The notes under the pieces were generated by a model. That model saw nothing but the letters and a program-made list of their open reading frames with translations. It searched no databases and had not been told where the DNA came from. Below are positions 3,698 to 56,268 of a stretch of 64,000 nt of DNA, piece by piece. The position numbers and the translations under genes were made by a program. Source of the DNA: Candidatus Binatia bacterium (lineage in GTDB: Bacteria; Desulfobacterota; Binatia; UBA12015); assembly GCA_029248525.1 (NCBI GenBank), contig JAQWJE010000049.1:62001-126000 (forward strand), in the 5' to 3' direction. The stretch's first letter is position 1, and each line of letters starts with the position of its first letter.

Positions 3698-4423
3698 TCA
3701 ACCTCGCAGCGAGGCTTCGAGAATTCGGGACAATTCCCCACGCTTTTTCAACCAGCGAATGACCTTATGGTCGCCTTCGGCGTACGCGTGGAGAAAGACA
3801 TCTTCGCAAGAGGCGATTCTCATGGCATGGGCCACGTCGAGGCCTTCCGTATGGCAATAATGCACGTGGAAGGTGCTGCCAGGCCGGCGCGACGACAGCG
3901 TCGGCACGAGATCCTCAAAGACCCGATTCTCTGCCGGTGAGCTATGAATATTGCGAATATCCTTCTTCCACCTGCGGTCACCCAGGCGAAATCTCTGCCA
4001 TTTGGCGACTGTGGTTTGCGGGGAAAAGGCGTGCACCTCGTCGAAGCCGAGTCGCGCACCGAAGTGAAGGGCTGCAAATCCTCCGGCCGAGGCACCGACG
4101 GCCACAACGCGACGGGGCTGCAGGCGCTCCAGGTGCCCGGCGAGGACTTTTTCCACCGAGAGCAAATCGTCGCCCGCTTCGGGCAAGCCGCGGAAGTACC
4201 AGGCGCGATGGGGATCTCGCAGAAACATTCCCTTTGCGGAGAGCGAACTCGCAAACTTTGCGAATTCATAAACCGGCACAGCCACGGAGCCAAACAACCC
4301 TCCGAAGGCGATCAGCAGGGCATCTGCTTCCGAATCTTCCTGAAGCAGGATCGCGGTTCCGTCATCGGCAAAAGGATCCAGATCCTCCGCCGGTTGCTCC
4401 TCGTCTTTTGAGGTATCGCTCAT
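3698..4423 (-). CDS. Alpha/beta-hydrolase-like protein, function unknown
   Basis: About 241 residues from the ATG at 4423; an in-frame ATG at 4444 is possible, but the AGAGACGAG stretch sits in ribosome-binding position for 4423. An acidic N-terminus is followed by a beta strand ending in AFGGLFG and the nucleophile-elbow pattern VGASAGGFAAL with Ser112. A late EGDHKVI could supply the catalytic His. No signal peptide is visible, so it is likely cytoplasmic. It is first in the leftward operon leading to miaB, with 39 bases between them. The fold is inferred from the elbow and strand pattern. I do not recognise a specific family and assign no substrate. Confidence 0.7.
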   Translation of the reverse strand: MSDTSKDEEQPAEDLDPFADDGTAILLQEDSEADALLIAFGGLFGSVAVPVYEFAKFASSLSAKGMFLRDPHRAWYFRGLPEAGDDLLSVEKVLAGHLERLQPRRVVAVGASAGGFAALHFGARLGFDEVHAFSPQTTVAKWQRFRLGDRRWKKDIRNIHSSPAENRVFEDLVPTLSSRRPGSTFHVHYCHTEGLDVAHAMRIASCEDVFLHAYAEGDHKVIRWLKKRGELSRILEASLRG

Positions 4424-4491
4424 GATGGTCTCGTCTCTTAGCATAACCTGAAGCCCCGAGTTGGCCTGATTCTGTCGCGACGGCTAAAGAT

Positions 4492-5031
4492 TTGATTGTG
4501 GGACATCACGATCATAGCAAAAAAGACACCGATTCGGTGGCAGAGCACCGCCAGAAGGGTGCGCAAGCCCGTTGCCTGGTCATCACTGTCAGCGACTCGA
4601 GGACTCCGGAAACAGATCGGAGCGGGGATCGGATGTCCGCCCTGCTGGAGCAAGGCGGACATCATACAGCCCAACGCCTTCTCATCCCTGATGAGCCCGA
4701 TCAAATCCGCCAAGCCATCACCAAGGCCCTCGAGGACCCCTCGATTGATGCGGTCCTGACCAACGGCGGCACCGGTATTGCCCCTCGAGATCTCACGACG
4801 GATGTCGTTGCGTCGCTTCTCGACCAACCCCTCGACGGCTTCGGTGAACTCTTTCGCTCTCTCTCCTTTGCGGAAATAGGATCGGCAGCAATGCTCTCCC
4901 GGGCCGTCGGCGGGATCGCCGGAAAGACCATGATCTTTTCTCTTCCCGGCTCGACCAAAGCCGTCGAACTCGGCATGACAAAGCTCGTCGTTCCCGAGCT
5001 CGGCCACCTTCTCGGGCTGCTGCGCTCATGA
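4492..5031 (+). CDS. moaB: MoaB/MogA-family molybdenum cofactor protein
   Basis: A 179-residue protein beginning at TTG 4492 or GTG 4498; neither has a strong Shine-Dalgarno. It contains the MPT-binding core: an ITVSDSRT strand near residue 33, the TNGGTGIAPRD motif near 90-100 (the GGTG molybdopterin-binding loop), and a SLPGS motif near 150. MoaB/MogA proteins bind molybdopterin, and MogA forms adenylyl-MPT before metal insertion. The choice between MoaB and MogA is not certain. The stop overlaps the moaD start (ATGA), and moaE follows, so this is a three-gene molybdopterin unit. The other moa/moe genes (moaA, moaC, moeA) are not in the window. Confidence 0.88.
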   Translation: MIVGHHDHSKKDTDSVAEHRQKGAQARCLVITVSDSRTPETDRSGDRMSALLEQGGHHTAQRLLIPDEPDQIRQAITKALEDPSIDAVLTNGGTGIAPRDLTTDVVASLLDQPLDGFGELFRSLSFAEIGSAAMLSRAVGGIAGKTMIFSLPGSTKAVELGMTKLVVPELGHLLGLLRS

Positions 5032-43343: not shown

Positions 43344-43952
43344 TCAGGAGACACGCATCGGGTCGATGAGTGTCTCGCGCAGCGCCACCACCAGTCCCGC
43401 GGCCGGCGGCGATCCATCCGTTGTCACGAGCCCCTGCACGAGAATCCCGTTCAAGGTGGAAAGGATCAGACTCGCTCGCACTTCGGCATCAAGCTCCTGT
43501 GCGAAGATGCCTTCCTTTTGACCACGTTCGATATTCTCGCGGATCAAACGCCGAAAGTGTCGGTAGAGCTCCAGGACCTGCGCAAAAAAAGCATCCGGCA
43601 TTTTCTCTTCACGTAAAAACAGGCTCAGAAAAAATCGCACGGACTCAATATGCTCCAGTACGAATGCTGTGTAGCGGTCCGCAATGACTTCGAGGGCATC
43701 GTCGGGCGAGAGCGTATTCACATTCTCGATATCGCCGCCCTCGATATGATAAGGCGCAATCGTTTCGGCGATGACTTCGTCAAACAGACATTCCTTATTT
43801 TCGAAGTGCCAAAAAATCAGAGCCTTGGAGACCTTTGCCTCGCGAGCAACGCTCGCCAACGAAGTGTTCTCGTATCCATGCCGCGCAAAAAGGCGGTTGG
43901 CGGATTCGAGGATCTTAACCCGTGCGTCCATGCCGTTCCGTTCGTGTTCCAT
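43344..43952 (-). CDS. TetR/AcrR-family transcriptional regulator
   Basis: About 202 residues, with ATGs at 43952 or 43931 (the latter starts MDARVK). N-terminal helix-turn-helix: ILESANRLFARHGYENTSLASVAREAKVSKALIFWHFENKECLF, the standard TetR pattern described here by its key residues (A-N-R-L-F, G-Y, T-S, IFWHF). The C-terminal ligand domain is all-helical. It lies 45 bases after menE on the same strand and could be the last gene of the men operon, or be read from its own promoter. Confidence 0.9.
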   Translation of the reverse strand: MEHERNGMDARVKILESANRLFARHGYENTSLASVAREAKVSKALIFWHFENKECLFDEVIAETIAPYHIEGGDIENVNTLSPDDALEVIADRYTAFVLEHIESVRFFLSLFLREEKMPDAFFAQVLELYRHFRRLIRENIERGQKEGIFAQELDAEVRASLILSTLNGILVQGLVTTDGSPPAAGLVVALRETLIDPMRVS

Positions 43953-43997: not shown

Positions 43998-45461
43998 TCA
44001 TCTCAATTCGTGCCTCTGCAGTTTGCCGCTTGCGGTTCGAGGCAGCTTTGGCCGGAACTCGACTGCTTGCGGCAGCTTGTAGCGCGCCAGACTCCCGCTG
44101 GCGAATGAGCGTAGGTCTTCCAGCACCGGCTCCAGGCCCGAAACAGGGACGACCACGGCCGTCACAGCCGTACCCCATCTTTCATCGGGGCGCCCCACCA
44201 CGCCTACATCCGCCACGCCCGGGTGAGCGAGAATTACCGCTTCCACCTCGGACGGAGAAACATTCTCCCCACCCGTCACGATCACGTCATCCGTCCGGCC
44301 GAGCAGTTCCAAAACACCCGATGCCTCCATACGACCTTCGTCCATCGTAGGCATCCAACCATCATCGTCCACGAGGCTCTCCAGCGCTCCGGGCCTCGTC
44401 AAGCGGCCCAAAGCCACCGTAGGTCCACGGACCTCGATCGAGCCAACACCCGAGAGAACAGGCCTGCGGTCCTTGTCCACGAGACGGATCTCGGTGACGT
44501 CGAGAGCCTCACCCACCACTCCCGTGCGGAAGGGGGCCCCGGACGGAACCGCTGTGGCGACCTGCGAGGTCGTCTCGGTCATGCCGTATGTCGGAGCTAC
44601 CGGCAAGCCGGCTTTCCGAGCACGCTCCAGCAGATCCCCGGTTGCGAGCGCTCCGCCCACAAGGACAAACCGGAGTGCCGCCGGAACCGTCCGCCCAGCA
44701 ATCGCGTCGATGAGCGGATCGAGCATTGTCGGGACTACGGACGCCTGTGTGATGGAGCCCGACAAAAGTGCCGTGGCCACTCTTTCGGCGTCAAACCCTT
44801 TTTGCAGACAAATCGTCGTGCCCAAAATGATGCTGCGTAGAAGGATGGACAGACCACCAATATGATGCAGGGGCATCGATGCCAGCCAGATATCCTCGGC
44901 CCGCGATCCGAGTCTTCGACTGCTCGACAACGTGCTCTCCAGATAGTTTCCGGCACCATGGACGATCGCCTTTGACTCGCCCGAGGTGCCGGACGTGAAG
45001 AGCAGAGTGAGGGGCCGAGCCAAATCAATTGGTGGTGTCGAAACAGGCTTCGAGGGATCGATCGACAAATCGACGGCTTCCCCGCTTACCCGGACAAGGG
45101 GACGGTTGGCCACAGCTGCCGCGGCTTGACCCAGTGCCTCGGTCGAAGCCTCCGCAAAAATGAGATCCGGCTCCGCAAGAGCCACGGCTCGACATACTTC
45201 GCGAGTCGTCCATTTGGGATTTCCGATGGCGAGAATCGCGCCAAGCCGCCGCGCCGCATGGAGCAACGTTACAAACCCCGTCCCGGGCGACAGCAGCGAA
45301 AGGAGGGTCATCCCCGGGACAATCGACCTTCCTGCCAGAGAACGGCAGTGATCGGTTACTCGGTTCTCGAGTTCGAGGAACGTCGTTTGCCCGCCCTCGT
45401 CGTTGATCAGGGCTACGTGATGCGGGCGCTCCTCAGCCTGCCGAGAAAGCCAATCAACCAC
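43998..45461 (-). CDS. menE: o-Succinylbenzoate-CoA ligase MenE
   Basis: About 487 residues from GTG 45461, with GGACGAG about 10 bases upstream; an ATG at 45503 is also in frame but would overlap menC more. Adenylate-forming enzyme motifs: LLFTSGTSGESKAIVH (A3), a PTYGMTETTSQVA (A5) segment, a GELLGRTDDVIVTGGENVSP-like A8 region and the C-terminal Lys in TASGKLQRHE. It activates OSB to OSB-CoA in menaquinone synthesis. It is the last men gene of the operon. Confidence 0.9.
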   Translation of the reverse strand: MVDWLSRQAEERPHHVALINDEGGQTTFLELENRVTDHCRSLAGRSIVPGMTLLSLLSPGTGFVTLLHAARRLGAILAIGNPKWTTREVCRAVALAEPDLIFAEASTEALGQAAAAVANRPLVRVSGEAVDLSIDPSKPVSTPPIDLARPLTLLFTSGTSGESKAIVHGAGNYLESTLSSSRRLGSRAEDIWLASMPLHHIGGLSILLRSIILGTTICLQKGFDAERVATALLSGSITQASVVPTMLDPLIDAIAGRTVPAALRFVLVGGALATGDLLERARKAGLPVAPTYGMTETTSQVATAVPSGAPFRTGVVGEALDVTEIRLVDKDRRPVLSGVGSIEVRGPTVALGRLTRPGALESLVDDDGWMPTMDEGRMEASGVLELLGRTDDVIVTGGENVSPSEVEAVILAHPGVADVGVVGRPDERWGTAVTAVVVPVSGLEPVLEDLRSFASGSLARYKLPQAVEFRPKLPRTASGKLQRHELR

Positions 45462-46527
45462 TTTGATGAATCTCGTCCGGTAGAAGAAAAGGGCTTTCCG
45501 CATCCAACGAAACGCCGAGGCCCAAACCAGCCGGCACGTCCATCAAGGGCCCCTCGTGAAGAGCCTGTTCGACCAGGTCACCCTCAAGCAGCGAGAGCGT
45601 TGAAAAACCATTGGCGGTTTCGGGCTCGAGCACCGCACTCAAATGCAAGACTGCCGACGTCGCTATCGAAGAATCCAAGCCTGTGGTGAGACAAATCTGC
45701 AAACCGTGTCGCTTGGCTTCCGCGGCCACCCGCATCGCCGCAGCGATGCCTCCAACCTGCATCAACTTGATCACGATCACGTCGGCGGACTTCTCCGAGG
45801 CGAGGCGGCTTACATCTTCTACCGTGCGGACGCTCTCGTCAGCGGCTACGCGGACACCATTTTCCCGGACCGCACGCATCCCGACCAAATCCTGGCGCCA
45901 CACCGGTTGCTCGATCCACTCCAGCGAATTCTGCCGAAGTCCGCCGCAGAATTCGACGGCCGTCTGTCTCGACCATGCCCCATTCACATCGAGTCGAAGC
46001 CCCAGTTGCGGCAGCGCCTCGCGGATCGCGTGAATTTCCGAAAGCGTCTGCTGAGGGTCCGGGTGAGCCTTGAACTTCGCTGTACGATACCCCATTGCAA
46101 AAAGTTCCGCCGCAGACGCTAAGGGCGCATCTCCGCGCAGAAGAGCACTCGACGCCGTGGGCCCCGAGCCGCGCGCTCCAAGGAATCGGGCAAGGGAAAC
46201 TCCTGCATCGCGCGCCGCGGCGTCGTACAAGGCCATTTCGAGGCCCATCGCCGCACCGGGCTCCATTCCTGACCAATCTGCCGCAGCAAGACTGCCCAGA
46301 CTCGAGCCGCATAGCCTTTCGGCTATCGACTGAGCTTCACGCCGAAAGTCCTCCCACCCCACGCGGCCGAGGGCCGGATGGGGAGCCATATCCCCGAGTC
46401 CCCAGCCCTTCTCCGTGCGCATCTGGACCACCATCCCGCGGCGGGAGCGAATCTTCTTTGAGGCCGTCGACAGGGGTTCATGAAGAGGAATTGCATAGGG
46501 CGTCAGAATTATTTTCTGGACGTTCAT
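45454..46527 (-). CDS. menC: o-Succinylbenzoate synthase MenC
   Basis: 357 residues from ATG 46527, overlapping the menA stop by four bases. Enolase-superfamily residues in order: AKFKAH (KxK), RLDVNGAW (metal Asp), WIEQP (metal Glu), AADESV (metal Asp), and the second catalytic Lys in VIKLMQVGG. It dehydrates SHCHC to o-succinylbenzoate. N-acylamino acid racemase activity, a frequent side function, is not excluded. Confidence 0.92.
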   Translation of the reverse strand: MNVQKIILTPYAIPLHEPLSTASKKIRSRRGMVVQMRTEKGWGLGDMAPHPALGRVGWEDFRREAQSIAERLCGSSLGSLAAADWSGMEPGAAMGLEMALYDAAARDAGVSLARFLGARGSGPTASSALLRGDAPLASAAELFAMGYRTAKFKAHPDPQQTLSEIHAIREALPQLGLRLDVNGAWSRQTAVEFCGGLRQNSLEWIEQPVWRQDLVGMRAVRENGVRVAADESVRTVEDVSRLASEKSADVIVIKLMQVGGIAAAMRVAAEAKRHGLQICLTTGLDSSIATSAVLHLSAVLEPETANGFSTLSLLEGDLVEQALHEGPLMDVPAGLGLGVSLDAESPFLLPDEIHQSG

Positions 46528-47405
46528 AAGAGAAGCCCCAGCGCAAAAAGAGCCGAGAAGACCAGCTGGAGGCGTGCTGTCTCTGCCAGGGCACCATTCA
46601 AAGCGCGACCGGCACCGTCCTGGCGAACCAAAGCGAGCGGCGATCGTGCCATCCGCATCGCCAGCCAGCTCAACAAAACAGCCGGGGAAGCCACGCCGCA
46701 AACGACCAGGAGTGGCGGACAGGCAAAGGCGACAACTATCAGGAAAAGATAGAATTTCCGACCCCAGATCACTCCACGACGCACGATCAAGGTTTTCTTG
46801 CCGACCTCCCTATCCCCGTCCACATCACGAATATTATTGACCACCAGAATTGCCGTTGCGAGAGCACCTACCGCGATCGAGCCCACCGCACCTGCAATCG
46901 TTAGCTGATCGATCATCAGCCATTCCGTTCCCAGCACGGCTACCGGACCGAAAAACACAAACACGAAAAGGTCCCCCAAGCCTATATAGGCGAGCGGGAG
47001 TGGACCTGCGGTGTACGCGATCCCGGAGAGAATCGACAAAAGACCAATCCAGACGATTGGCCAGCCCCCGACCCCGATCAAATAAAGGCCGACAAGAGCC
47101 GCGAGTGCGAAAGCCCCCAGACCCGCGCGCAACATGGTCCGAGGAGAAATATCGCCGGCCGAGACCGCCCGCCGCGGACCCTGACGGTCGGCACCATCCG
47201 CACCGCGCTGGAAATCGCCCCAGTCGTTTACGAAATTCGTACCAATTTGAATCGCGACCGCTGCCAATAAAATTGCACCGAGGACCAAGGGCCGGAGGGC
47301 GCCCTCTGCCACGGCAGCGCCCATGCCCACCAGAATCGGCGCGACTGCCGCAGGCAAGGTCCTGGGCCGCGCCGCCTCCCACCAGATCCCCGATCCGGAA
47401 CTCAT
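46524..47405 (-). CDS. menA: 1,4-Dihydroxy-2-naphthoate polyprenyltransferase MenA
   Basis: A 293-residue UbiA-superfamily inner-membrane protein with about eight helices. The two Asp-rich motifs are present: NFVNDWGDFQRGAD near residue 57 and NNIRDVDGDREVG near residue 190, which bind the Mg-prenyl-diphosphate. It makes demethylmenaquinone from DHNA. The start overlaps the menH stop by four bases. Confidence 0.93.
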   Translation of the reverse strand: MSSGSGIWWEAARPRTLPAAVAPILVGMGAAVAEGALRPLVLGAILLAAVAIQIGTNFVNDWGDFQRGADGADRQGPRRAVSAGDISPRTMLRAGLGAFALAALVGLYLIGVGGWPIVWIGLLSILSGIAYTAGPLPLAYIGLGDLFVFVFFGPVAVLGTEWLMIDQLTIAGAVGSIAVGALATAILVVNNIRDVDGDREVGKKTLIVRRGVIWGRKFYLFLIVVAFACPPLLVVCGVASPAVLLSWLAMRMARSPLALVRQDGAGRALNGALAETARLQLVFSALFALGLLL

Positions 47406-48199
47406 GGGGTCTCCCGTTCCGCGTAAAAAGCCGCCACCGCAGCTTCTGTCGCGACAGGATTTTCCAGCAAGAGTGCGTGTCCGGCCCCCTCGATCACCAC
47501 ACCCTCAGCCCTCGGCATCGCCGCGACCATCTGGCTGGAGATGTCGACGTATTTCTTGTCGAGGGCACCCGAGAGAATCAGACTTCGCATCTCCATCCGC
47601 GCGAGCGCCGGCCAAAGGGATGGCTGCCGACCGGGCGTAAACTGTCGAAGGGCTTGCGCAAAAGATGGCCCGTCTCCCGCGAGTTTTCTGGATCTCTCGG
47701 CGGCAACTCGCTGTGGCTCGGCAAGTGTCAACGTTTCGAAAAGAGGTTGCTCCATCCACTCGCGCACAAAGGTCTCGAGCCCCTCACTTTCGATACGATC
47801 GGCCAATCCATCATCGGCATGCGCACGACGAGACCTTTCGGCTGCATCCTCGATCCCTGGCGAGGCACTGAGAATGATCATCGAAGAAATCCGCTGCGGG
47901 AAAAGCGCCGCCAGATGCAATAGTGTCCGGCCACCCATGGAATATCCGATGAAATCTGCTTTGACGACGCCTTGTTTCTCCAGCCAGCGATCGATGACTG
48001 CTGCCACGTGAGGTAAACCTGTCGCTGAATCCCGGCCGTCGAACTTCGTATCTCCGTGACCGGGAAGATCCAGAGCGAATACGCGGAAGCGTTTCGAGAG
48101 TTCAGGAAGCCACTCGTCCCAACTGGTATGATTTCCGGTGAATCCGTGCAGAAGAACCAGAGGGGGACCCTCGCCCGAGGTAACGGCTGTCAGTTCCAT
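47402..48199 (-). CDS. menH: SHCHC synthase MenH (alpha/beta hydrolase)
   Basis: A 265-residue alpha/beta hydrolase with LLHGFTGN, the elbow GYSMGGR (Ser near 93), an acid in LSGALDKKY and the His in EGAGHALLLE. These match MenH, which removes pyruvate from SEPHCHC to give SHCHC. It overlaps menD by 10 bases and menA by four. Position inside the men operon makes the assignment firm. Confidence 0.93.
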   Translation of the reverse strand: MELTAVTSGEGPPLVLLHGFTGNHTSWDEWLPELSKRFRVFALDLPGHGDTKFDGRDSATGLPHVAAVIDRWLEKQGVVKADFIGYSMGGRTLLHLAALFPQRISSMIILSASPGIEDAAERSRRAHADDGLADRIESEGLETFVREWMEQPLFETLTLAEPQRVAAERSRKLAGDGPSFAQALRQFTPGRQPSLWPALARMEMRSLILSGALDKKYVDISSQMVAAMPRAEGVVIEGAGHALLLENPVATEAAVAAFYAERETP

Positions 48200-49929
48200 C
48201 CCGACACCTGCGACAGCAACGTCCCGATTTCGCGATGAGCTGCGAGTGATTCCCGACGCTCAATCCGCACGACAAGGACGTGACTCTCTCCACTCGAAAG
48301 TGCTGCCTGCAAAGCATCGGGAAATTGCTCCGCGCGCACCTCCGTTGAAGCAACCCCATAGGATCTGCTGATTTCAGCGATTGAGCGACCGTGCGAAGTG
48401 ACAAATAAATCTTCGAAGGCAGGATGCCCTTCGCCGGCCAGCGGCAGATGGTCAAAGATCCCCCCACCGTCGTTGTCCAGAACCACCAGTACGGCACGAG
48501 CGTCCGCACGCGTGGCGGCAAGAAGACCGCCGGCATCGTGGAGGAACGAAACGTCCCCAAGCACGCCCACGGTAGCGCCTGAATGCCCGGCGCTGACCCC
48601 GAAAATCGTCGAGACCAGACCATCGATCCCCGACGCCCCTCGACTCACAAGAACCTCGGGCGAATCGGATCCAGACGCACAAAAGAGATCAAGGTCCCGA
48701 ACAGAGATCGAGTTGCCGACAAAAAGCGCTGCCTCGCGCGGAAGTGCCTGCACCACCGACCGAAGGATCGTTCCTTCCACTGGTTCGGTCGTATCCAGAT
48801 AGCGATCGAGTCGGCCACGGGCCTCGAGACCTGCGGCAACCCAACCTGCCGCCCAGGCACTCCGGTCTGCGTTTTCCGGCAGAGACTCTGCAATCGTCGC
48901 AAGAATCGGCGCAAGCGGGCCGGAAATCAGGTGAGTAGCGGTTGCCGCAGGATCGGGCCATTCGCCGTTCTCTGCAAGAATCATTTGCGGAATCTCGGCA
49001 CACGACATCAAAAATTGCCCGACCGCCTTGGAGGTCGGCAGGTCACCGATGCGCACCAGAAGATCGGGCAATTCCTTCGGTTGCCCGCCTCGCAGCAAGG
49101 CATCGTAGGCGTCCACACGGCCATCTTCGGGCTGCAGTCCTCGGACGTTCGCGGTGGCCTCTGCAAAAATGGCCGCTCCGACTCGGCCCGCAAGATTTCG
49201 CAACCCTGCCTCCGTCTCTCCTGCGTCCAACACGGTGGGCCCCATCACGATCAGTGGCCGCCGAGCGCCTGCCAAAAGATCGATCACATCCGCAGGCACG
49301 TCACCACTGAAGCCGCGAACCTGATGCGTGCGCGTATTTGGCTCGCGCGCACCCTTGCCGTCCTGGTCCGGCGGCGAAGGTACGATTCGTGGACCAAAGG
49401 GTTCCCGAAACTCGCAATTGAGATGAACCGGTCCGGACCGAACGCTGCAGGCCTCGGCAACCACTCGATCCGCGAGACGTCGCAAGGCCCTCTCACCGGA
49501 AGGTTCGGCCATCGATGCGGCAACATTCGACGCAAAGCGAACATAGGAGCCGAAAATCTCCTGCTGGTGGATCGTCTGGTTGGCCCCACAATCGTGAAGC
49601 TCCGGCGGTCGATCGGCACTCAGAACAATCAGGGGCACCCGGGAGAGGCTCGCCTCGATGATTGCAGGAAAATAGTTGGCCAGCGCGGTGCCCGACGTGC
49701 AAACCAACGCGACTGGTTTTCGCGAGGTCTTCGCAAGTCCGAGTGCAAAAAAACTGCCGGCTCGTTCATCGATATGCGAAAACACCTTCGCATCAGGGTG
49801 GTCGGCGAAAGCCAGCGTCAGAGGCGTCGATCGGCTTCCAGGCGAAATACATGCCGCCTCCACGCCGGAGGCTACCAGTTCTTCAACCAGGATCCGTGCC
49901 GTCCGAGCGGCTTCACTCTCCTGCTGCAT
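48190..49929 (-). CDS. menD: SEPHCHC synthase MenD
   Basis: 579 residues from ATG 49929. Three TPP-enzyme domains: the Pyr domain starts with SPGSRSTPLTLAF and HIDERAGSFFALG (with the catalytic Glu), the central domain follows, and the PP domain has GVLGDVSFLHDAG and VVLDNDGGGIF, the GDG-N metal-diphosphate site in its MenD form. It adds 2-oxoglutarate to isochorismate, committing it to menaquinone. The isochorismate synthase gene ends five bases upstream. Confidence 0.95.
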   Translation of the reverse strand: MQQESEAARTARILVEELVASGVEAACISPGSRSTPLTLAFADHPDAKVFSHIDERAGSFFALGLAKTSRKPVALVCTSGTALANYFPAIIEASLSRVPLIVLSADRPPELHDCGANQTIHQQEIFGSYVRFASNVAASMAEPSGERALRRLADRVVAEACSVRSGPVHLNCEFREPFGPRIVPSPPDQDGKGAREPNTRTHQVRGFSGDVPADVIDLLAGARRPLIVMGPTVLDAGETEAGLRNLAGRVGAAIFAEATANVRGLQPEDGRVDAYDALLRGGQPKELPDLLVRIGDLPTSKAVGQFLMSCAEIPQMILAENGEWPDPAATATHLISGPLAPILATIAESLPENADRSAWAAGWVAAGLEARGRLDRYLDTTEPVEGTILRSVVQALPREAALFVGNSISVRDLDLFCASGSDSPEVLVSRGASGIDGLVSTIFGVSAGHSGATVGVLGDVSFLHDAGGLLAATRADARAVLVVLDNDGGGIFDHLPLAGEGHPAFEDLFVTSHGRSIAEISRSYGVASTEVRAEQFPDALQAALSSGESHVLVVRIERRESLAAHREIGTLLSQVSGWN

Positions 49930-49934
49930 CGACC

Positions 49935-51233
49935 CTAGGCTTCCAGAAATGCTTCCAGGATGGTGCGCATTTTCAGACGCGTCTCCTCCAGCTCGCCAGT
50001 CCATTCGGAGCCTGCGACAATGCCGGCCCCGGCATGCAGCGTCGCTTCTCCGGAACGAACCAGTGCCGTCCGAATCGCCACACTGATCTCGCCATCGGCG
50101 CCATCCATCCAACCGATCCCGCCGCCATACCACCCACGCGGCGACGACTCATGACGATTCAGGGCCGACGCGACTTCGGCGCGCGGCAACCCACCGAGAG
50201 CGGGTGTCGGGTGCAGTGTGGCTACCACGTCGAGGAAGGTCGCGTCGTCGAGCAACGTGCCGCGAATCGGGGTCCGCAAGTGCTGGACCGGACCCGCCGA
50301 CATCGTCTCGGGGGTTTTCTCGGCCTTCACCTGATCGCAGAAGGGTGCAATGCGCTCGACCACGTCGGCGACGACCAATTGATGCTCATGACGCTCTTTG
50401 ACACTTGTCTGCAGGGTCTCCGCCGCAGCTACTTCTTCGCTCGCTCCATCGCCTCGTCGCGCCGTTCCCGCGACCGCGGCTGTCCTCAACTCGCGATTTT
50501 CCACGCAGGCAAGAGTCTCGGGACTTGCTCCGAGAAAGGTGCTTCCATTGCGGCGCACGGCAAAAACATTGGCATGAGGATGGGCACGGCTAAGGTGTCG
50601 TGTCAGGCGGGGGACATGAAATTCCTCGACCGAAGAGACCCGCACAGCCCGCGACAGCACCAGCTTTTCCAATTGTCCGCTCTCGATTTCCGCGAGCGCA
50701 CCCGAAACCGACCTCTGCCATTCGGCATCGGTTTCACGGGCACGCACGTGAAGGTCGAGGGAACTGCGCGTTCGTTTGGGTCGGCAAACCAGTTGCGTCA
50801 GATTTTCCTCAAGTGCGTCGAGAACCTCTCCGGGAGACTGCGCGGTATCGGCACTCGCTGCAAAAAGCTCGGTTCGGCCCGGACGCAGCAAGATCGCGAC
50901 TCGAGGCAAATGAAAGGAGAGGGAGGCGAAGTCCGACCACTCCCCCGCGGGCGCATGTGCCGGGTCGAAGGCAAAACCACCGACAAGCAACGGTCTGGGC
51001 AAATCGGCACGGCTCAGGCGAGCCGCGATTTCGCGAAAGCGATCCGGCCCCGCCGCTTCAAAACCCTGCGCGACCCCACTCGACACAATCATTTCCTCGG
51101 AGCCCCGTGACCAGAGAAAGGCGGGCTCCTCGGGAGCCAGATCCCATAGAAGACGGGGGTCTCCCGAAAATTCGACCTGTCGACGCTCGATCCGGATTTC
51201 GGCTTCGGCGGGGACGCGATGGGGCATCGTCAT
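49935..51233 (-). CDS. menF: Isochorismate synthase MenF
   Basis: A 432-residue chorismate-binding enzyme. The C-terminal catalytic half has KLVLSRAV, FLGASPE, AVAGTARRG, LHPTPALGG (with the active-site His), RGWYGGGIGWM and AGAGIVAGSEW, which are the landmarks of MenF/EntC/DhbC. It isomerises chorismate to isochorismate. It overlaps ubiE/menG by four bases and is followed by menD, so it serves menaquinone rather than a siderophore. Confidence 0.93.
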   Translation of the reverse strand: MTMPHRVPAEAEIRIERRQVEFSGDPRLLWDLAPEEPAFLWSRGSEEMIVSSGVAQGFEAAGPDRFREIAARLSRADLPRPLLVGGFAFDPAHAPAGEWSDFASLSFHLPRVAILLRPGRTELFAASADTAQSPGEVLDALEENLTQLVCRPKRTRSSLDLHVRARETDAEWQRSVSGALAEIESGQLEKLVLSRAVRVSSVEEFHVPRLTRHLSRAHPHANVFAVRRNGSTFLGASPETLACVENRELRTAAVAGTARRGDGASEEVAAAETLQTSVKERHEHQLVVADVVERIAPFCDQVKAEKTPETMSAGPVQHLRTPIRGTLLDDATFLDVVATLHPTPALGGLPRAEVASALNRHESSPRGWYGGGIGWMDGADGEISVAIRTALVRSGEATLHAGAGIVAGSEWTGELEETRLKMRTILEAFLEA

Positions 51234-51937
51234 GAGGATCCACCGGCCCGGGTCGCGATGAGCAATTGCACAGCGCCCGCTCCGAGAGCGATCCGCCGGA
51301 CCTTGGCGAAACCGGCTTCTTCCAGCATCGCAATCAATTTCGGCGGCTCGGGCAGGTAGGCCGCGGATGCTGGCAGATAACGATAGGCCTCTCTGTCGGC
51401 GAGAAGTTGGCCCACCAGAGGAACTATTTTTTGAAAATAAAAACTATGAACCGCGCGGGCGGGGGCAAAGTTTGGCTGCGAGACTTCGAGGATCGCCAAA
51501 CGACCGCCCGGCCGCAAGATTCTTGCGGACTCTGCGAAGACCGGCGGGATCGACAGAACGTTACGGAGCGCAAATGCCGTCGTGACGACGTCCACGCTCT
51601 GATCCGCGAGGGGGATATCCATCGCGTCGCCCTGCACCACTGACGCGCCCATCCCCCGGTCGCGAGCCACAGCCAACATCCCGCCGGCCGGATCGACACC
51701 AACAGCGTAGGCCCCGGCGCCTGTGGCCAATTCGATCAAATCACCGGTACCGCAGCCGAGATCGACAACCCGATCGCCCACCTGGATCGCGACCTCCCGC
51801 ATCAAGCGACGACGCCAAACACGGTCGAGGCCGCCCGTCATCAAAACGTTCATGCGGTCGTAGCCGGGCGCGATCCGATCGAACATATCCCGCACAGTGC
51901 GGGCTTTTTCCTCTTGTGCCGGTAGACTCATCGCCAC
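51230..51937 (-). CDS. menG: Demethylmenaquinone C-methyltransferase UbiE/MenG
   Basis: A 235-residue class-I SAM methyltransferase with VVDLGCGTGDL (motif I) near residue 57, and family blocks MFDRIAPGYDRMN, TTAFALRNV, LEVSQP and YRYLPAS. It methylates the demethylmenaquinone ring. It is the first men gene of the operon and overlaps the MerR gene by 10 bases. Confidence 0.95.
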   Translation of the reverse strand: MAMSLPAQEEKARTVRDMFDRIAPGYDRMNVLMTGGLDRVWRRRLMREVAIQVGDRVVDLGCGTGDLIELATGAGAYAVGVDPAGGMLAVARDRGMGASVVQGDAMDIPLADQSVDVVTTAFALRNVLSIPPVFAESARILRPGGRLAILEVSQPNFAPARAVHSFYFQKIVPLVGQLLADREAYRYLPASAAYLPEPPKLIAMLEEAGFAKVRRIALGAGAVQLLIATRAGGSS

Positions 51938-52674
51938 TGCACCTCGAGGGTGCCCGTCGTCGCCTCGCGGGCGCGCGCCAAAGTCTCCTCGTCGCCGTCT
52001 TTGGCCAGCCGCGCCAGAGCGACCCCGACCAGAGTGCGGTGAAAATGCGTCGCGACCAGCGTCGTCACGGCCGGCAGGATCCGGCGCACTGCGTTCGCGA
52101 CCTCATCGCCGTCGGTCAACTCACCCTCCGAGCCCCGCCTGATATGTTGGTCAAAGACATCGGCCGCACGTTCGCAGAGCCCATCGACATGTTTGGCATG
52201 GCCGAGAGCCAGGCCAATCAGTTCGCCGAGCGGCAGACCTTCCTGCAAAAGGGCCAACGCAGCTCGGCCCAATTCGATATCCTCTTCGGTATAGGGGCCC
52301 TGCTGATTGCCGGCGCCGGCACCCACAAGACCCACCTCTTCGACGGCGTGAATCAGTTCCTCGGAGACTCCGGACTCGGCGGCCACCTCTGCACGGCTGA
52401 GATTGGCCCGGCCAGTCCCCGCCGTGAGGGCTTCGATCAACGCCTTGTCAGCCTTTTTGCGAACGGGGCTGACCAGGCGCCGAATGACCTTGAGTGTATG
52501 ACCCTCATCCTGCAATCGGCGAATCTGGTCGAGGCGTTCGAGATGCCCTTCCCCATAGATCGCATTGCGGCCTACCCGTCGAGGCGGCGGGAGCAGCCCC
52601 TGATTCTGATAATAGCGGATCGTATCGACCGGCAGCGTTGCCTCGGCCGCGAGCTCCTCTACACGATAATCCAT
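51928..52674 (-). CDS. MerR-family transcriptional regulator heading the men operon
   Basis: A 248-residue protein. The N-terminal winged HTH starts YRVEELAAEATLPVDTIRYYQNQGLLPPPRR, described by key residues: A-A-E-A, T-I-R-Y-Y, G-L-L-P-P, then GHLERLDQIRRLQDEGHTLKVI, as in MerR proteins. There is no Cys pair for metals; the rest is a long helical effector region. It overlaps menG by 10 bases and carries a dyad in the promoter spacer directly upstream. No Shine-Dalgarno is visible, so it may be translated from a leaderless message. Confidence 0.9.
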   Translation of the reverse strand: MDYRVEELAAEATLPVDTIRYYQNQGLLPPPRRVGRNAIYGEGHLERLDQIRRLQDEGHTLKVIRRLVSPVRKKADKALIEALTAGTGRANLSRAEVAAESGVSEELIHAVEEVGLVGAGAGNQQGPYTEEDIELGRAALALLQEGLPLGELIGLALGHAKHVDGLCERAADVFDQHIRRGSEGELTDGDEVANAVRRILPAVTTLVATHFHRTLVGVALARLAKDGDEETLARAREATTGTLEVQWR

Positions 52675-52710
52675 GTGAATACTCTATGAGTGATTACTCA
52701 CAAAGTACAA
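52675..52710 (-). promoter_or_regulatory. MerR-type promoter with operator in the -35/-10 spacer
   Basis: On the minus strand, a -35-like TTGTAC (52705-52710) and a -10-like TAGAGT (52681-52686) are 18 bases apart. The dyad TGAGT-N4-ACTCA (52687-52700) fills the spacer, and a wider imperfect inverted repeat with 9-base arms covers 52675-52701. The long spacer with an operator inside is the standard arrangement of MerR activators. The -10 ends seven bases before the MerR ATG. AT-rich DNA lies upstream (52718-52762). The -35 matches poorly (TTG only). Function is inferred. Confidence 0.65.
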
Positions 52711-52758
52711 GGGGCAGCTCAGGAAATAAAACGCAAAGTATTGTTTTTACTTAGTTAA

Positions 52759-55383
<2,625 letters not shown>

Positions 55384-55749: not shown

Positions 55750-56268
55750 TCAGACGATCTGGGCGAGGCTGCAAGCCCCGAACGTGAGGAAGTAGCTGGC
55801 CGTTTGTTTGACGGTGGCGCCATAGACAGGCCCGGTTCCCCCATCCTCGCGGCCCGCGATCCGGATCGTGTTGCGGAACGCCTTGCCCCGCAAATGCTCT
55901 GCATATTCAGGCGCATCGGGAACGATATAGCCCTCGGGGTAACTCCAACCCGAAGCGAGTTCGGTGCCTTCCTCGACCGATTCCGCGGCGATCGGTGACC
56001 CGTCGGCAGCGACGAAAAGATGATCGTGCCCGACTCGAAGGGTCTGCCCTTCTTCGTTTCGGAACTGCACGAGCGGGGCCTCGGCTGCGAGTTCGCGAAT
56101 ATTGATCATCATGCGAAATCCGATGGTGCCGTCGGCTAGTCGCGTCGTCACGGGCATGACTTTTCCAACCAGTGTCAAGATCTCGACAGGACCGTCGATA
56201 GTCTCGACAAGAGCGCTTCCGGAGAGTCGGCTATTGGTCGGGGGTGGCGGTTTTTTGGGTTTTTCCAT
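55750..56268 (-). CDS. Stand-alone Hint/intein-like domain protein
   Basis: A 172-residue protein with a Lys/Pro-rich start. The segment SALVETIDGPVEILTLVGKVMPV (residues 18-40, named by its parts) resembles intein block A, and RVGHDHLFVAADGSPIAAESVEEGTELA (79-104) resembles block B with its TxxH-like GHDH (80-83). The nucleophilic Cys/Ser at position 1 is replaced by a non-terminal Ser-Ala, and the C-terminal HN is missing, so self-splicing is unlikely. No large host protein surrounds it. It could be a domesticated Hint fold or regulatory protein. Assignment is by pattern only. Confidence 0.55.
   Translation of the reverse strand: MEKPKKPPPPTNSRLSGSALVETIDGPVEILTLVGKVMPVTTRLADGTIGFRMMINIRELAAEAPLVQFRNEEGQTLRVGHDHLFVAADGSPIAAESVEEGTELASGWSYPEGYIVPDAPEYAEHLRGKAFRNTIRIAGREDGGTGPVYGATVKQTASYFLTFGACSLAQIV

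Follow-up and report, generated by a model that had tools for sequence, protein, structure and literature searches.

A conserved GAGT-N4-ACTC dyad as the probable operator of a MerR-linked, autoregulated menaquinone operon in Binatia

The DNA analysed here (the window) is a stretch of 64,000 nucleotides from Candidatus Binatia bacterium (contig JAQWJE010000049.1, positions 62,001 to 126,000 of the forward strand), and the coordinates below are those of the window. On its minus strand it carries clpB and then merR-menG-F-D-H-A-C-E, the men genes overlapping or being separated by very short gaps:

52759-55383, minus strand: clpB, ending 84 bases before merR
51928-52674, minus strand: merR, a MerR-type regulator of 248 residues (Pfam MerR_1, 1.6e-26, 92.6 bits)
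51230-51937, minus strand: menG/ubiE-type methyltransferase (TIGR01934, 199.8 bits, cut-off 158.35), with a 10-nt overlap with merR
49935-51233, minus strand: menF, isochorismate synthase (TIGR00543, 297.7 bits, cut-off 224.75)
48190-49929, minus strand: menD (TIGR00173, 430.6 bits, cut-off 244.2)
47402-48199, minus strand: menH (TIGR03695, 219.8 bits, cut-off 208.55)
46524-47405, minus strand: menA (TIGR00751, 210.7 bits, cut-off 102.15)
45454-46527, minus strand: menC-like o-succinylbenzoate synthase (TIGR01927, 130.4 bits, just below the cut-off of 130.55)
43998-45503, minus strand: menE-like o-succinylbenzoate-CoA ligase (TIGR01923, 303.9 bits, below the cut-off of 330.15)

With menG, menF, menD, menH and menA (as well as menC and menE) overlapping or abutting on one strand, the set represents a classical men operon, in which menC and menE score below their model cut-offs. 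The starts of menD (an ATG) and of the menC-like gene were chosen by eye, the mechanical open reading frames beginning at 50133 and 46701, respectively. The initial annotation rightly described the gene next to the promoter as a MerR regulator overlapping menG. Further along the same strand, 3' of menE, lies a gene of a TetR-type regulator (43344-43952), whose matches to ScbR, AcrR, RefZ and other NCBIfam models are all below cut-off; it may represent another regulator acting here. A 172-residue frame at 55750-56268 of the minus strand appears Hint/intein-like by eye, lacks the usual N-terminal cysteine and has no Pfam match.

Between clpB and merR the following elements can be discerned:

52705-52710, minus strand: -35-like hexamer TTGTAC, read from the sequence; the relatives mostly have TTGAC or TCGAC there
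52687-52700, either strand: operator dyad TGAGT-N4-ACTCA, read TGAGT-AATC-ACTCA, with the core GAGT-N4-ACTC at 52688-52699
52681-52686, minus strand: -10-like hexamer TAGAGT, with a further GAGT half-site inside it
52672-52680, minus strand: 6-nt gap (ATTCAC) and the ATG of merR, a predicted leaderless start

On the minus strand TTGTAC is followed by an 18-base spacer holding the dyad, then by TAGAGT, ATTCAC and the ATG (52674), and the original description of a TGAGT-N4-ACTCA dyad between two hexamers 18 bases apart is thus confirmed together with its coordinates. An in-frame TAG stands four codons upstream of the merR ATG. As both hexamers are weak in the window's genome, the promoter was recognised through its relatives; a generic sigma-70 scan flagged no promoter at merR (0 found). 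The pattern TGAGTNNNNACTCA occurs once in the window, at the dyad, where 0.03 occurrences are expected and 3 of 100 shuffled sequences contain one; in the 4.27-Mb genome it is found at two places, one of them the dyad, against one place for the reversed-pattern control. For the longer form GAGTNNTNACTCNNAGAGT the dyad is the sole exact match in this genome, accompanied by an offset, overlapping match with one mismatch at the same place, while the other 8 of 10 genome matches have two mismatches and the reversed control gives 18 matches. By own-genome statistics alone the dyad is a modest signal, and the case for it as a putative operator is made by conservation.

Orthologous loci were collected by protein similarity or by a peptide pattern, that is, independently of the operator or the men genes. 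A protein similarity search of 58 genomes, including the window's own, found the regulator at E <= 1e-39 in 27 of them (own included), and the 26 orthologues that were aligned have an identity of 36-53% with the window's MerR protein. Contigs were also scanned with a peptide pattern derived from the protein's C-terminal half, which yielded 80 loci, some contigs being common to both sets. The titles of the latter records name Binatia, Myxococcota, Deltaproteobacteria, Proteobacteria and Actinomycetota/Acidimicrobiia; this taxon range comes from record titles and is unreliable, several records titled Deltaproteobacteria or "bacterium" being Binatia genomes (e.g., L057). One record titled Klebsiella pneumoniae MAG (L046, CAMBZJ010000004.1) has the merR-men locus of a Binatia genome (G001), and its title is probably wrong. 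In the tree, 32 rows titled Deltaproteobacteria, "bacterium" and the like, together with 12 Actinomycetota rows, stand apart from the Binatia rows (support 94). Three loci (L031-L033) were left out as a fragment or general MerR matches, and removal of identical upstream regions and of those shorter than 80 nt reduced 107 loci to 91 distinct ones (27 from the protein search and 64 from the peptide pattern).

Core-anchored gapless alignment of the upstream regions of the first set yields TTGAC-n5-GAGY-n4-ACTC-n-n-AGAGT just 5' of the start codon. Conservation of the dyad upstream of orthologous men operons had been named by the initial annotation as a point on which its idea could fail, and the idea survived: GAGY-N4-RCTY is present between -110 and +12 of the merR start in 89 of the 91 distinct loci, both misses (L011 and L105) being one letter off, against 21 occurrences in 117,995 bases of other upstream DNA, or 0.022 per 122 nt. 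All eight core letters are kept in 85/91. The linkage with menaquinone genes is just as persistent. Among the 27 loci L004-L030 (window included) menG follows merR in 26, the remaining one (L009) running off its contig, and a men gene lies downstream of merR in 78 of the 80 peptide-pattern loci (menG, menF and menD in 42; menF and menD in 23; menG and menF in 6; menG alone in 7). One of the two loci left, L045, is at a contig edge; the other, L087, is a true exception, where the merR orthologue (4001-4744) has a degenerate site (14/19) and no adjoining menG, menF or menD, a 525-residue open frame following it instead, and control of men genes may therefore not be universal. In many Binatia (L014-L017, L021 and other loci) a second dyad, GAGT-N4-RCTC, is seen 15 bases after the first and ends at the start codon; RCTC occupies this place in 25 of 91 loci, and in the window the second dyad is incomplete. 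To judge from these sequences, two dimers may bind in some species.

An inverted repeat of this kind might act as RNA rather than DNA, namely as the hairpin of an attenuator or riboswitch in a longer transcript coming from the clpB side. In favour of this are a possible stem of 5 bp closed by a loop of four bases, the position of clpB upstream in the same orientation, and a scan of 52500-52900 that revealed nothing resembling a terminator. The same interval gave no Rfam match at E <= 1, however, and it is the letters of the arms that are conserved, without co-variation: C stands at position 3 in 29 of the 91 loci, while the partner of this position, position 8, is A in 83 and G in 8. The upstream half-site is therefore read loosely. 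Besides, a clpB match is found upstream in none of the 80 peptide-pattern loci, unlike in the window. We consider a hairpin very improbable.

The exclusiveness of the site was assessed with the promoter-operator pattern TTGACNNNNNGAGYNNTNACTCNNAGANT, searched in 148 Binatia genomes with no more than a single mismatch allowed. There were 20 matches, representing 19 sites from as many genomes, every one of them before merR-menG, and the reversed control gave one match. Thirteen of the 19 sites are the merR loci from which the pattern was drawn; the remaining six are also at merR-menG, two of them (G072 = L059 and G100 = L057) already belonging to the peptide-pattern set and four being new. As 129 of the 148 genomes, including the window's own (two mismatches), have no match at this stringency, the search tests exclusiveness and not frequency. 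With three mismatches allowed, 98 of 118 genomes had matches, 217 in all, whereas the reversed control had 159 in 84 genomes, so that most weak matches are due to chance. Among the matches listed, 17 regions were fetched, of which ten are merR-men loci and seven (L162, L163, L166-L170) have no merR, menG, menF, menD or clpB match. In one of the seven (L166, G057:C137) an operator-like match with two mismatches stands shortly before a frame that is GrpE-like by eye, in a single genome and possibly by chance; in another (L167), also in one genome, a match with two mismatches stands 6 bases before a 399-residue frame of odd composition. At high stringency the dyad looks like a dedicated operator with an apparent single target in the Binatia searched. 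These data also bear on the possibility that a different regulator uses the dyad, or that it is no more than a conserved promoter, the neighbouring MerR protein acting elsewhere. This would agree with the fact that the -35 and -10 hexamers are themselves among the conserved positions; yet the operator and merR travel together over many genomes while the upstream gene changes, a bare promoter has no need of GAGT-N4-ACTC between its hexamers, and all high-stringency sites are at merR. We find this explanation improbable.

As to the promoter itself, position 2 of its -10 hexamer is A in 88 and position 6 is T in 90 of the 91 loci, the commonest forms being TAGAAT (27), AAGAGT (21) and TAGAGT (15). 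The unique best -35 spacing is 17 bp in 69 loci, 18 bp in six, 19 bp in six, 16 bp in two and 20 bp in one, with ties in seven, L008, L054 and L091 being badly anchored in this count; by eye, the choice of a different anchor or start codon brings L008 and L091 into line, and the first dyad of L054 is degenerate. The window's best -35 is a tie of 17 and 18 bp. The distance from the end of the -10 hexamer to the start codon is 6 nt at 58 of the 91 loci and 8 nt at another 24, and a Shine-Dalgarno-like sequence is seen in one of 91. Since transcription starting about seven bases past the -10 hexamer would begin on or near the start codon, a leaderless transcript is predicted.

The initial annotation regarded the spacer as over-long, as needed for a MerR protein to twist it. 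For most of the family this part of the claim is doubtful (17 bp in 69/91, and a tie of 17 and 18 bp in the window), but it retains some ground near the window. All six loci with a unique 19-bp spacer (L005, L006, L007, L009, L010 and L011) are close to the window, with the -10 hexamer and the operator in place and TTGACT, TTGACA, TTGCCA or TTGCGA as the -35; five of them form an eight-row clade (SH-aLRT 98) with the window, L008 and L013, while L011 is outside the tree's sample. In part of the window's lineage the -35 hexamer thus seems, from these alignments, to have moved by about two bases with the operator and the -10 hexamer fixed. The serious rival to our interpretation is accordingly the classical MerR activation, where the regulator sitting on the dyad untwists a too-long spacer upon a signal and enables RNA polymerase to act. 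It agrees with the location of the dyad between the hexamers and with the 19-bp relatives, as MerR activators work on spacers of 19-20 bp, 17 bp being optimal (excerpt of PMC8113463). It is at odds with the optimal spacing of most promoters, including L013 (17 bp) of the window's own clade, and with L026 (16 bp) of its family. Furthermore, the dyad centre lies 7.5 bp from the -10 and 11.5 bp from the -35 hexamer, whereas in the classical MerR layout it is not offset towards the -10. On the whole we regard activation by untwisting as possible, though unlikely.

We suppose instead, with a probability of about two in three, that the dyad serves as the operator through which a dedicated menaquinone operon regulates itself, the mode of control being autorepression of a leaderless promoter. 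This reading starts from a GAGT-N4-ACTC palindrome whose position hardly varies within a promoter of the sigma-70 type (TTGAC, 17 bp as a rule, TAGAAT/AAGAGT). The transcript would start at or next to the merR ATG; a MerR dimer would bind the palindrome, cover the spacer and reach the -10 hexamer, and in this state should repress merR-menGFDHACE, until a signal altering the C-terminal domain ends the repression. The likeliest signal would be a membrane lipid or a hydrophobic compound made in the pathway, be it the product or a precursor (menaquinone, demethylmenaquinone, DHNA). For most members repression would be the simplest way of control, a 17-bp spacer needing no untwisting, and self-regulation is inferred from the site, the gene order and the exclusiveness. 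The initial suggestion that the men operon is autoregulated by the linked MerR protein is thus probably right, as judged from the core in 89/91 loci, the men linkage and 19 of 19 sites at merR-menG. Against autorepression one can put the poor -35 hexamer and undecided 17/18-bp spacer of the window, the 19 bp of its six close relatives, which suits activation, the AAGAGT form of the -10, a weak sigma-70 hexamer, and the operator arms, which do not co-vary.

The regulator possesses the MerR winged helix-turn-helix (Pfam MerR_1 in 77 of 77 members), which places it in the MerR superfamily, and VIA-align matched its model with PbrR691 (Z 12.6, rmsd 4.6, 115 residues) and SoxR (Z 12.5, rmsd 3.9, 114 residues). 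A fairly confident AlphaFold2 model built on 77 orthologues (pLDDT 85.2, pTM 0.58) comprises the winged helix (residues 1-70), a helix at 74-85 and then a C-terminal half that is likewise helical and includes two long helices. The top ten Foldseek matches are all Rv1264/Rv1264N (E 3e-5 to 4e-4, prob 1.00), and with the isolated sensor domain the match to Rv1264/Rv1264N has a TMt of 0.57-0.61 and an rmsd of 6.8-10.2. An HMM of residues 88-242 reaches E-values of 0.002 or lower with PF16701-bearing frames from 13 out of 21 loci, these E-values being optimistic because the frame set is small and was chosen for that domain. In the opposite direction, PF16701 matches four of 77 members at E <= 1 (best 6e-4); the window's protein has no such match at E <= 1 and is below the Pfam gathering score of 28.6 bits. 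Rv1264 was absent from the VIA-align matches, which are filled by the MerR domain, and from the PDB sequence search. As modelled, the sensor half resembles Rv1264N at the level of fold, with weak sequence support, and our proposal is that the two may work alike, not that the protein is a member of PF16701. Residues H210, F211, R213 and L215 are invariant in the 27 aligned sequences of the protein-search set, the only unbiased estimate, since the peptide-pattern rows were selected on these very residues. In the Rv1264 structure oleic acid is situated between the regulatory and catalytic domains (excerpt of PMC12505454), and by analogy we infer a lipid-type or quinone-pathway ligand for the sensor half, although a common fold does not show a common ligand. 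A more far-reaching scheme, which we put forward as speculative and doubtful, is that an Rv1264N-like lipid-sensing MerR protein reads the menaquinone pool (or DHNA/demethylmenaquinone, or a membrane lipid) and sets the whole men operon from a leaderless promoter, the window's lineage having changed a repressible 17-bp promoter into a twist-activatable 19-bp one by the move of the -35 hexamer alone.

Microbial regulation of quinone levels has been called poorly understood (in an excerpt of PMC12421875). A regulator and an operator that stay beside men genes, both in Binatia and under record titles naming Myxococcota or Actinomycetota, represent a testable candidate for the transcriptional control of menaquinone synthesis, and their recurrence across several phyla of uncultured bacteria points to a switch dedicated to turning this synthesis on and off. 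Through its putative sensor half the regulator connects the MerR proteins with the regulatory domain of Rv1264-type adenylyl cyclases, and the naturally occurring difference between 17- and 19-bp spacers offers a ready test of how a MerR protein changes between repression and activation.

Among known systems, the activators MerR, CueR, SoxR and CadR are autoregulated and have a short metal or Fe-S site as the sensor. The merR-men protein has the N-terminal winged helix and the operator between -35 and -10 in common with them, as well as, probably, the autoregulation; it differs in the mostly 17-bp spacer of its promoters, in its long helical sensor half and in its probable target, a whole biosynthetic operon. 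HspR recognises the HAIR operator CTTGAGT-N7-ACTCAAG, and clpB is one of its known targets. The window's protein is likewise of the MerR type, with GAGT/ACTC half-sites and clpB upstream; however, the half-sites are spaced by N4 and not N7, in the window as in the 89 loci above. The link to HspR and ClpB was rejected on account of this spacing, of a score of 32.3 bits against the HspR model cut-off of 105 and of the lack of clpB matches in the 80 loci.

FtsR (Rv1828) of Actinobacteria is the best NCBIfam match and nearest named family, at 50.1 bits far from the cut-off of 150 and hence from membership. Both proteins have about 250 residues, a MerR N-terminus and a related C-terminal half (5ydc is among the Foldseek matches), and the FtsR motif of M. 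tuberculosis ftsZ is also located between -35 and -10 (excerpt of PMC6683498). The site of FtsR, AACCCTAAAGTAAAGGTTGAGGGTA, its neighbours odhI/garA and a nuclease gene, and its target ftsZ (same source) are different from those of the window's merR, which adjoins clpB and men genes. Rv1264N (PF16701), the regulatory domain of a pH-sensing adenylyl cyclase, is the best fold match, with weak sequence similarity; in the merR-men protein the corresponding half scores below the Pfam cut-off, is joined to a DNA-binding domain and not to a cyclase, and carries H210, F211, R213 and L215.

For Corynebacterium, a TetR repressor that responds to DHNA may have been described; it was not among the literature matches listed. 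Nor was any MerR-type regulator of men genes among the matches listed in our search of the open-access literature. The window's regulator is thus a protein of the MerR type that probably controls its own operon; its sensor half is unusual, and its probable men target is unreported as far as this search goes. Finally, the feedback of DHNA on MenD is an allosteric effect on the enzyme (excerpt of PMC12421875); it and the merR-men system, as proposed here, would both control menaquinone synthesis by a product of the pathway, the former at the level of MenD activity and the latter at the level of transcription.
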